NCBI GenBank assembly: GCA_021848545.1
Contig: JAJZUL010000004.1
Location: 1-64,000, forward strand
DNA: 64,000 nt
Reading direction: 5' to 3'
Source: Pseudomonadota bacterium
GTDB taxonomy: Bacteria > Pseudomonadota > Alphaproteobacteria > Rhodospirillales > Magnetospirillaceae
A program made the position numbers and the translations under genes. The first letter of the stretch is position 1. Each line of letters starts with the position of its first letter. Shown piece by piece: positions 1,744-61,481 of this stretch. Below the pieces are notes generated by a model. That model was not told where the DNA came from and made no database searches. It saw only the letters and a program-made list of their open reading frames with translations.

Positions 1744-3801
1744 ATGTTGCACGATGACACAATGGTGATGGCCGATTTCGATACGGCGGCGGCCGGGACG
1801 GCGCCCGAATCCGATGGACCGATGGCGGTGGGCGTCACCGTGATCGTGCGAAACCTGGAAACCATGCCCTCGGCGCCGGGGGTCTACCGCATGCTCTCGG
1901 TCAAGGGCGACGCCCTCTATGTGGGGAAGGCCAAGAATCTGAAGCGGCGGGTGGCGGCCTATACCCGGCTCGACCGTTTGCCCCTGCGCTTGAAACGGAT
2001 GGTGGCGGAAACCGCGGCGATGGAGGTGGTGACCACCCACACCGAGGTGGAAGCGCTGCTGCTGGAAAGCAATCTGATCAAGCGGTTGGCGCCCCGCTAC
2101 AACATCCTGCTCAGGGACGACAAATCCTTCCCCCATATTCTGGTGACCGATGATCACGCGTGGCCGCAGATCGTCAAGCATCGGGGCGCCCGGACCCGCA
2201 AGGGGACCTATTTCGGACCGTTCGCCTCGGCCGGGGCGGTCAACCAGACCCTGTCGGCGTTGCAGCGCGCCTTTCTGCTGCGCTCCTGTTCGGATTCGGT
2301 GTTCGCGTCCCGCACCCGCCCCTGCCTCCTGTATCAGATCAAGCGCTGCAGCGCGCCCTGCGTCGAGCGGATCGATCACCAATCCTATCTGGGGCTGGTG
2401 GAGGAGGCGCGGGCCTTTCTGTCGGGCCGCGGCCGGCGCGTCCGCGACGATCTGGTGGCACGCATGGAGGAGGCCAGCGGCGCCCTCGATTACGAACAGG
2501 CGGCGATTTTTCGCGACCGTATCCGGGCGCTGGCCCACATCCAGGCCCATCAGGACGTCAATCCCCAGGCGGTGGAGGAGGCCGATGCGGTGGCGCTCTA
2601 TCAGGCGGGCGGGATCAGTTGCGTCCAGGTGTTCTTTTTCCGCGCCGGCTGCAATTTCGGCAATCGCGCCTATTTCCCCGCCCATGCCCAGGATGTGGGG
2701 GCGGCCGAGGTGATGGCGGCCTTTCTCGGCCAGTTCTACGCCGACAAGGTGCCCCCCGCCGAAATCCTGGTCAGCGTCGAGCCGGCCTCGCCGGCGATCG
2801 TGGCGGCGGCCCTGTCGGAAAAGGCCGGGCGCAAGGTGGCCGTGATCCGGCCCATGCGCGGCGACCGTCGGCGGTTGCTGGACCGGGCGCTGGACAATGC
2901 CCGCGAGGCTTTGGGCCGGCGTCTGGCCGAAAGCGGGGCCCAGGCCCGCCTGCTCGAAGGCGTGGCGGCTCTGTTCGGCCTCGACCAGCCCCCTCGGCGG
3001 ATCGAGATCTATGACAACAGCCATATTCAGGGCAGCCACGCCATCGGCGCGATGGTGGTGGCCGGGCCGGAGGGGCCGATCAAATCGGCCTATCGCACCT
3101 TCAACATCCGCACCGCCGATCTTAAGCCGGGCGCGCAGGCGCCCGATTCAGACGATCGGCGACCTGCGTCGCCGGGCGCGCAGGCGCCCGATTCAGACGA
3201 TCGGCGACCTGCGTCGCCGGGCGCGCAGGCGCCCGATTCAAAAAACGGGCGACCTGCGTCGCCGGGTGATGATTACGCCATGATGCGCGAAGTGCTGGAT
3301 CGCCGTTTCCGCCGCGCCCTCAAGGAGGACCCGGACCGCGATCGCGGCCTGTGGCCCGATCTGGTGCTGATCGATGGCGGCGCCGGCCAGTTGCACGCCG
3401 TCCAGGACATCTTCGCCGATCTCGGCATCGAGGACGTGGCCCTGGCGGCCATCGCCAAGGGGCCGGACCGGGACGCCGGGCGCGAACGGTTCTTCCTGCC
3501 CGGGCGCGCGCCGTTTTCCCTGGAGCCGAAGGACCCCGTTCTTTACTACCTGCAACGGCTGCGCGACGAGGCCCACCGCTTCGCCATCGGCACCCACCGC
3601 GCCCGCCGCAGCCGGGCGATCGGTCAATCCCTGCTCGACGAAGTGGCCGGAATCGGCGCCGCCCGCAAAAAGGCGCTGCTGCATCATTTCGGGGCCGCCC
3701 GCACCGTCGCCGAAGCCGGGCTTGCCGATCTGGAGCAGGTGCCGGGTATTTCCCGGGCTTTGGCCAAAAAAATCTATGACCACTTCCATCCCCAGGGGTA
3801 A
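1744..3801 (+). CDS. uvrC: UvrABC system protein C (excinuclease subunit), with in-frame repeat insertion
   Basis: UvrC makes both incisions in nucleotide-excision repair after UvrAB damage recognition. The GIY-YIG nuclease domain is at residues 46-70 (GVY and [11 protein letters not shown]). A UVR motif ([17 protein letters not shown]) precedes the RNase H-like endonuclease domain ([10 protein letters not shown]), and tandem helix-hairpin-helix motifs end the protein ([28 protein letters not shown]). Residues 462-506 are three near-identical 15-residue repeats ([15 protein letters not shown]) placed between FNIRTADLK and [10 protein letters not shown], where family members are normally continuous. 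The frame is intact, so activity probably survives if the loop is exposed. The product is 685 residues, longer than usual because of the insert and an N-terminal extension. Confidence 0.95.
3127..3266. repeat. Three tandem 45-bp two-hairpin repeats inside uvrC
   Basis: Each unit starts at 3127, 3172 or 3217 and is exactly 15 codons. It holds two hairpins: GGGCGC-GCAG-GCGCCC and GGCGAC-CTGC-GTCGCC, whose loops GCAG and CTGC are complementary. The third copy differs in the spacer (AAAAAACGG). The first hairpin recurs twice in non-coding DNA at 37717-37794, so this is a genomic repeat family that entered a coding region without breaking the frame. Confidence 0.85.
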
Positions 3802-37716: not shown

Positions 37717-37794
37717 CCGGGCGCGCAGGCGCCCAGTTCAACAAATCGGGCGCGCAGGCGCCTAGTTCAACAAATCGGCGGCCCCTGCCGCCGG
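37717..37794. repeat. Two-hairpin palindromic repeat upstream of lepB
   Basis: GGGCGC-GCAG-GCGCC[C/T] occurs twice (from 37718 and 37748), each followed by AGTTCAACAAATC, and the run ends in GGCGGC-CCCT-GCCGCC (37777-37792). The layout (hairpin, ATTCA/GTTCA spacer, second hairpin) is that of the repeat within uvrC. It lies 60 bases upstream of lepB in a 213-base non-coding gap. Confidence 0.75.
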
Positions 37795-61319: not shown

Positions 61320-61481
61320 TTGGAGCGGAGCGACTAGGCCGTTGAGGCCGCCGCAGCGTGCGGAGAGGCTCCATCGGGGCCTCGGAGCGCAAGCGAGGAT
61401 AGCCAAGGGCGCGGACGCGCCCGCCCGGCGATTGAGGGAAATATACATAATGCAGGGGAAGCGGGTTCACCCGATTCCCCT
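61320..61481. repeat. 162-bp dispersed repeat, copy 2 (inverted)
   Basis: This is the reverse complement of the copy at 51160-51321 with about eight mismatches. It lies within the TCA operon between sucB and lpd, so it is probably transcribed as part of the operon; its terminal hairpin (AGGGGAAGCGGGT/ACCCGATTCCCCT) could affect read-through into lpd. Confidence 0.9.

Follow-up and report, generated by a model that had tools for sequence, protein, structure and literature searches.

We identified a 45-bp palindromic unit that is dispersed over this genome and that stands in three tandem, in-frame copies inside uvrC. The element is likely to have entered uvrC once and then to have grown there by tandem duplication to three units, and its persistence in genes is best ascribed to a coding-compatible build. 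The window, that is the whole 64,000-nt stretch under analysis, holds the uvrC array and a second, intergenic site of the same family. Their features are listed in Table 1, together with the remaining loci of the genome.

A three-unit array in the uvrC reading frame

The uvrC open reading frame contains the Pfam domains GIY-YIG, UVR, UvrC_RNaseH, HHH_5 and UvrC_RNaseH_dom, the last in two stretches. It is the single uvrC found in its genome, the 8 further own-genome matches all falling on repeat loci. The initial annotation had described three in-frame 45-bp units at 3127-3266, each built of two hairpins with complementary tetraloops and together adding 45 residues. We found this arrangement at 3129-3263, and the annotated span equals the three units plus the flanking CC and GGG. 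The array has a period of 45 nt, the second copy being 100% and the third 90% identical over 51 nt. Each unit carries the hairpins GGGCGC-GCAG-GCGCCC and GGCGAC-CTGC-GTCGCC, with 6-bp stems. The second hairpin is a reverse-complement variant of the first, and the complete unit therefore forms a single imperfect palindrome with 21-nt arms as well. In the predicted fold of the 141-nt array the two hairpins pair with each other, and its energy of -101.1 kcal/mol compares with -70.2 kcal/mol for shuffled sequences (z = -7.56; 0 of 200 shuffles as good). The GC content is 74.1% in the units and 65.6% in the window. An Rfam search of window positions 2800-3600 gave no match up to an E-value of 1.

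Table 1. Features of the uvrC array and of the other loci of the 45-bp unit. Scores are from covariance model R1, in whose seed many of these loci were included.
Feature	Position	Strand	Units	R1 score (bits)	Remarks
uvrC	1744..3801	+	3	63.7-63.8	685 aa; intact except for the insert; units in seed
Target CC, left of array	3127..3128	+			Pro-Gly codons
uvrC unit 1	3129..3173	+			45 bp; 15 residues in uvrC frame
uvrC unit 2	3174..3218	+			45 bp; sequence identical to unit 1
uvrC unit 3	3219..3263	+			45 bp; diverged spacer; 15 residues in frame
Target GGG, right of array	3264..3266	+			Pro-Gly codons
Intergenic partial unit	37719..37747	+			29 bp; hairpin A and spacer
Intergenic full unit	37748..37792	+			45 bp
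Locus	C5:15269		4	74.0 (best)	
Locus	C2:8470		3	73.9 (best)	
Locus	C44:103407		2	73.4 (best)	intergenic
Locus	C2:4925		3	72.7 (best)	
Locus	C65:22227			66.8	
Locus	C31:37719 (the two rows at 37719..37792 above)			62.2	intergenic
Locus	C56:17054			61.2	intergenic
Locus	C23:95346			59.4	
Locus	C65:22655			48.7	
Locus	C65:28324			39.3	
Locus C62a	C62:31314			35.1	second hairpin kept, first broken
Locus C62b	C62:45412			31.6	exact first hairpin, poor second
Locus	C52:73854			28.7	exact first hairpin, poor second; intergenic

The unit forms a dispersed family

The same hairpin family had been annotated in non-coding DNA at 37717-37794, and there we found a partial 29-bp unit followed by a full one. 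At loose thresholds the window holds about as many hairpins as chance would give. With up to 3 mismatches, hairpin A matched at 61 places (62 expected) and hairpin B at 7 (3.9 expected; 9 of 100 shuffles reached as many), so that near-exact copies alone are informative. Across the genome (3.17 Mb in 85 contigs, 99.75% complete) the exact core GGGCGCNCAGGCGCC occurs at 23 places, 22 of them within 12 of the 14 family loci and one a stray. Allowing up to 2 mismatches raised its matches to 426, while the reversed control reached 181. These core counts are independent of the seed of R1, the covariance model that we built from 17 units. Alignment A1 comprised 20 units; alignment A2 and R1 leave out C52, C62b and C65c, in which the second hairpin is degenerate or shifted. 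R1 lists 78 own-genome matches, many of which are the reverse strand of one unit, and loci were inspected to an E-value of 0.0025. If the repeat were a peculiarity of uvrC, it should be absent elsewhere in the genome. Instead, the core and R1 searches found 14 loci, 11 strong and 3 weak, of which 10 lie in open reading frames and 4 are intergenic. For the strong loci, exact cores, scores and empty insertion sites lead us to reject a chance repeat in GC-rich DNA. For C62a, C62b and C52 that reading is less certain to be rejected, their scores lying near the range of 17.6-27.9 bits in which seven matches from unrelated taxa fall. A separate sequence, GGCGCGGACGCGCC, recurs at 61408-61421 of the window and at the contig starts C2:16 and C5:12, close to contig ends, and is probably a different, longer repeat.

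The majority consensus of the unit is GGGCGCGCAGGCGCCCnATTCAAnGAATCGGCGGCCTCCGCCGCC. Its first hairpin is nearly invariant; variation sits in the short spacer between the hairpins and in the second hairpin, typically GGCGGC-CTSC-GCCGCC. Stem changes are compensated in the second hairpin of uvrC and in the fourth C5 copy. The stems are 6 bp by consensus, with 100% and 95.1% of their cells paired in 17 units, and in some copies a flanking base may add one pair. Three pairs are changed on both sides, a number reached by 40 of 500 shuffles, while the percentage paired was matched in 38 and the covariation score in 2 of 500. With the structure shifted by -1 the covariation score rises, yet in that register only 45% of cells pair. 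Covariation lends modest support to the structure. The second hairpin is either 16 nt long after a 13-nt spacer or 15 nt long after a 14-nt spacer; the total of 45 bp is kept because a loop base lost in the second hairpin is matched by one gained in the spacer. Unit lengths of 42, 44 and 46 were seen too.

For 17 own-genome units, the mean number of differing sites out of 45 is 3.6 within a locus and 7.3 between loci, and none of 2000 label shuffles gave a within-locus mean as low. Units of one locus are therefore most alike, which indicates that the arrays grew in place, and the description of the family as expanding is supported in the sense of tandem amplification. As judged from the sequences, array growth fits a single insertion followed by tandem duplication, for which slippage or unequal exchange would be the probable route.

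Coding copies use the open frames of the unit

Nine of the 10 loci in open reading frames have a Pfam or PHROG family hit. Besides uvrC, the coding hosts in this genome are a methyl-accepting chemotaxis protein (MCP; insert inside the NIT match), a PhoH reading frame, DUF6468, a dksA/traR zinc finger, a glutathione S-transferase (GST), an RluA-type pseudouridine synthase, a GlcE-like FAD-binding protein and the phage protein phrog_2119. C65b is without a family hit, and a longer reading frame in another open frame of the unit overlaps the C65b reading frame. In PhoH, the GST and the phage gene the unit is near the N-terminus and may lie upstream of the true start. Given the proportion of coding DNA that bacterial genomes generally have, 10 loci in 14 do not amount to an excess in reading frames.

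Four of the six frames are nearly always open. GRAGAR.., GAQAPDS.., GG..GACAP (reverse) and PAAEAADSLNRAPAR (reverse) are stop-free in 17, 17, 16 and 17 of 18 units, respectively, and the remaining frames, RARRRPIQ.. and RRRRPPIHWIG.., in 11 and 9; this count of 18 leaves out uvrC unit 2 (identical), the third C2b unit, the C31b partial, C56, C52, C62a, C62b and the second C23 unit. The four open frames are used by all 10 own reading frames, as well as by 8 family-supported cases in relatives. In the metagenome-assembled genome (MAG) SKS5.bin75 (G002) these cases are a class II ribonucleotide reductase, DnaX, two copies in one Mu portal reading frame and a C-5 cytosine methylase; elsewhere they are the IS66 transposases of G024 and G001 and the DUF3489 of G014. 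The eight exclude L102, L107, an upstream copy at L092:473, the frameshifted IS66 copies L104 and L105, and the IS66 copy of G076. In G002, three units lie in frame in the ribonucleotide reductase gene nrdJ (L094:3108-3242) and one in dnaX (L100:2009-2053). Both belong to DNA metabolism, as Di Nocera et al. noted for the hosts of other repetitive extragenic palindromes (REPs).

These observations suggest how the unit persists in genes: at 45 bp it measures 15 codons, and on each strand two of its three frames are almost always free of stops. Insertion in an open frame would add 15 residues rich in Gly, Ala, Arg, Pro and Ser and leave the host frame open.

Insertion sites are empty in relatives

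We found uvrC matches in 57 of 60 relatives, 34 of them of the same family and none of the same genus. If the insert were ancient, it should be conserved in these orthologues. It is missing from every same-family uvrC locus that was read: the linker measures 8 residues in 27 of 27, as against 53 here, and in 25 of the 27 Pro-Gly directly precedes DDY/F. The empty site thus reads CC-GGG within Pro-Gly codons, the flanking residues being retained around the 135-bp array. In two relatives from other families of the order, G043 (L030) and G047 (L031), the same loop carries unrelated extensions, which indicates that it is permissive. In the solved chain 2nrt the loop is short, lying between residues 61 and 66 of the chain and immediately before a conserved 10-residue segment of the nuclease domain, and we take it to be part of the RNase H-like fold. 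In the course of events that we propose, one 45-bp unit would have inserted at this site and would then have been amplified to three by tandem duplication. The added UvrC peptide is presumably neutral or nearly so.

Other hosts could be read in a similar way. The single aligned relative of the MCP (G007) is without exactly the 45 residues. In the DUF6468 and RluA-type genes the insert is missing in five relatives each; the DUF6468 linker varies in length, and the RluA-type insert amounts to a net 9 residues. For the three units in NrdJ of G002, 8 of 9 other genomes searched, our own genome included, show both flanks without the insert, and G009 shows part of one flank only. The IS66 copy of G001 is 45 bp longer than the 81-87%-identical copies in G071, G027 and G067, a clean insertion at base resolution. 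For glcE there was no close orthologue among the nine genomes searched. G002 also contains a high-copy miniature inverted-repeat transposable element (MITE) with the ends TGTCATCCCGAGG..CTCGGGATGACA, filled copies of which lie in L094-L099 and L109. An exact pattern found 55 empty copies, and in the 7 filled copies that were read the unit occupies one internal site.

The family centres on relatives of Paramagnetospirillum

At an R1 E-value of up to 1e-7 the unit occurs in 6 of 55 genomes of the family that includes Paramagnetospirillum (our own, G001, G002, G024, G027 and G076). G014 has a weaker, well-formed copy of 39.0 bits. At an E-value of up to 0.01, matches appear in 16 of the 61 genomes of the relatives set, mostly weak; further R1 hits in relatives beyond those described lie outside the counts. 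A palindromic repeat in G037, from another family (L106:1810-1890), reaches 41.2 bits, the strongest outside the family. Its first hairpin differs, and it is possibly a related family. The border of the family is accordingly not sharp.

An exact-pattern search of 84,980 species genomes (genome_contigs, where own-genome records may be left out) gave 19 stretches. Twelve of them belong to three relatives within the family, namely Paramagnetospirillum caucaseum SO-1, a Rhodospirillaceae MAG and the MAG SKS5.bin75. The remaining seven are the single hits in unrelated GC-rich taxa at 17.6-27.9 bits; they keep the first hairpin because the search pattern demands it, and none has the intact GCCGCC arm of the second. 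We set them aside as chance.

Possible carriers and routes of movement

Several copies lie in genes that themselves could travel. In our own genome a Mu-like prophage stretch (L021, G000:C65:20000-30500), marked by a DNA transposition protein, DUF3164, a late activator and Mu Gp27, holds three single copies within about 6 kb. In relatives two copies are found in the Mu-type portal reading frame and several in IS66 transposases. The IS66 transposase genes of four genomes hold the unit at one common site (L101, L103, L104, L181), and in G027 the IS66 copy is 44 nt long, which shifts the frame. We found no match when window positions 3120-3272 were searched by blastn against 72,556 plasmid records, and the exact pattern gave 0 stretches in viral_contigs. 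The IS66 transposase gene of G001 matches 930 plasmid records, a count that concerns the gene and not the unit. We infer that phages and IS66 may have carried the unit between genera, and that the unit moves non-autonomously with an enzyme supplied in trans.

One candidate for such an enzyme is a DDE transposase, which would recognise the unit, a MITE on this account, by its imperfect 21-nt arms and move it. We consider this account unlikely, although it has several observations in its favour. The arms are inverted and pair in the fold, as terminal inverted repeats of a MITE would, and the 45-bp insertion is clean. CC precedes the unit in 25 of 33 arrays, or in 18 of 26 without the MITE-borne copies. 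Some sites show direct repeats of 3 to 7 bp, resolved to the base in IS66, where the same site has CCACC on both sides in G001 and CCGCC on both sides in G027. These matching flanks hint at target duplication, while several other sites are without any. Against the account, no constant length of duplication was apparent, the left flank and the unit end having 0 to 7 bp in common across the 33 arrays. In our own genome the exact cores are confined to family loci and the one stray, and no larger element with such ends was seen.

It is quite improbable that the insert is instead adaptive, modifying UvrC or, through its hairpins, the uvrC mRNA, and was retained for that. Copies in uvrC here and in nrdJ and dnaX of G002 speak for such a role, as does the position of the uvrC loop next to the conserved nuclease-domain segment. 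The available text of Di Nocera 2013 (PMC3733652) likewise speculates on altered activity for replication and repair genes that carry REPs. Yet the other targets (the MCP, GlcE, GST, pseudouridine synthase, DUF6468, and phage and IS66 genes) are unrelated, the insert is common to 0 of the 27 relatives read, and the unrelated extensions of the same loop in two other families point to tolerance.

The units are very unlikely to be REPs mobilised by a RAYT, a Y1 tyrosine transposase, as is thought for GTAG REPs. The unit, an inverted dimer able to form one long hairpin, does resemble REP dimers, for which such folding is described in the parts of PMC3733652 at hand, and the carriers G001, G002 and G024 have one Y1_Tnp gene each. 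A search with PF01797 (Y1 transposases including RAYTs), positive in 5 of 14 known genomes used as a control, nevertheless found none in our own genome or in the single-contig carrier G027. In the sequence surrounding these Y1 genes, three loci with a total of 9,876 bases, R1 scored nothing above 13.3 bits. In a search for the exact tetramers GTAG and CGTC and their complements, apart from the variants TGTC and CCTC, one array of 33 carried any of them at 8 nt or less from its ends. RAYT mobilisation is thus not supported by the Y1 searches and the scan of the Y1 loci, and within the Y1 family searched no transposase is linked to the unit.

Finally, it is extremely improbable that the unit is an immobile slippage repeat born in uvrC, with likeness elsewhere due to GC-rich convergence: the tandem order, the raised GC content, the chance-level core counts in the window at loose thresholds and the first hairpin in seven unrelated GC-rich taxa at up to 27.9 bits would suit it, but unrelated loci of this genome and of other genera hold the same two-hairpin unit, with scores of 48-74 bits, the relatives' insertion sites are empty, and the intact GCCGCC arm is found in 0 of the 7 unrelated hits. 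Slippage is kept solely for growth in unit number.

Comparison with known palindromic elements

According to the portions of the sources available to us, Rickettsia palindromic elements (RPEs; Ogata and co-workers) occur in non-coding DNA and, in frame, inside conserved genes (PMC3767692; PMC2229807), measure 100-150 bp and are hosted by Rickettsia and Wolbachia (PMC3767692). RPE-4 and RPE-6 have been equated with CGTC REPs (PMC3733652). The initial annotation had drawn a parallel to Rickettsia. As a way of working it stands: the palindrome occupies intergenic DNA and reading frames (10 of 14 loci, nine of them with a family hit) with the frame intact. As membership it does not: our unit has 45 bp, forms a GC-rich double hairpin that often stands in tandem, belongs to a different alphaproteobacterial lineage, and is set apart on the basis of published descriptions.

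CGTC REPs, as the accessible text describes them (PMC3733652), are mostly alphaproteobacterial, have loops of 4-5 nt, form inverted dimers, include intragenic copies and are without a dedicated transposase, all of which recalls our unit. They differ in the terminal CGTC tag, which the unit is without, and in stems of 8-9 bp as against 6 bp by consensus here; a 13-14 nt spacer and head-to-tail arrays of the whole 45-bp dimer are further differences. Like GTAG REPs, BIMEs and REPINs, the unit consists of inverted short palindromes able to form one hairpin; unlike them, it is without a GTAG tag, its own genome is without a Y1/RAYT match and 10 of its 14 loci are in reading frames. With ERIC/RU and Correia/NEMIS it shares the character of a small non-autonomous repeat translated as peptide within host genes; those are about 100-200 bp long, whereas our unit has 45 bp and flanking repeats that vary (review by Delihas, PMC2229807, in the part available).

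The tagged REPs of Di Nocera 2013 (PMC3733652) are in some cases intragenic, many of those copies lying in replication and repair genes, with uvrA and uvrB named, and others in pseudouridine synthases, as far as the accessible text goes. Palindromes in frame inside genes, uvr genes included, are known already. What appears to be new is the family itself, along with the lineage that hosts it, the arrays in core genes and a 45-bp build compatible with coding. Among the matches listed, the open-licence literature does not describe the 45-bp family, and in the accessible part of RepRanger 2025 (PMC12306157) Magnetospirillum, Rhodospirill- and RAYT do not occur. By description, then, the unit appears to be a family separate from RPEs and from intragenic REPs.

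Discussion

Palindromes that invade genes are known above all from Rickettsia. In a Paramagnetospirillum-related lineage a far shorter family does so here, at empty sites that are readable to the base, and the 3.17-Mb genome and the named relatives suggest that the host is not an endosymbiont. Beyond our preferred account, of a single entry into uvrC followed by tandem growth, it is possible, if rather doubtful, that the unit is a selfish palindrome that evolved for life in genes. Its length would be held at 15 codons and stops kept out of four of six frames, it would spread through Mu-like phages and IS66 with no enzyme of its own, and core enzymes would gain new peptide loops from it, in a lineage other than the reduced endosymbionts. 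Were this true, insertion in either orientation would often be harmless.

The arrays stand in core genes, uvrC here and nrdJ in a relative, and copies sit in possible vehicles: the Mu-like prophage, IS66 and the MITE. Two old questions are thereby made testable, namely how palindromes move without a visible transposase and whether they supply conserved proteins with new peptide segments.
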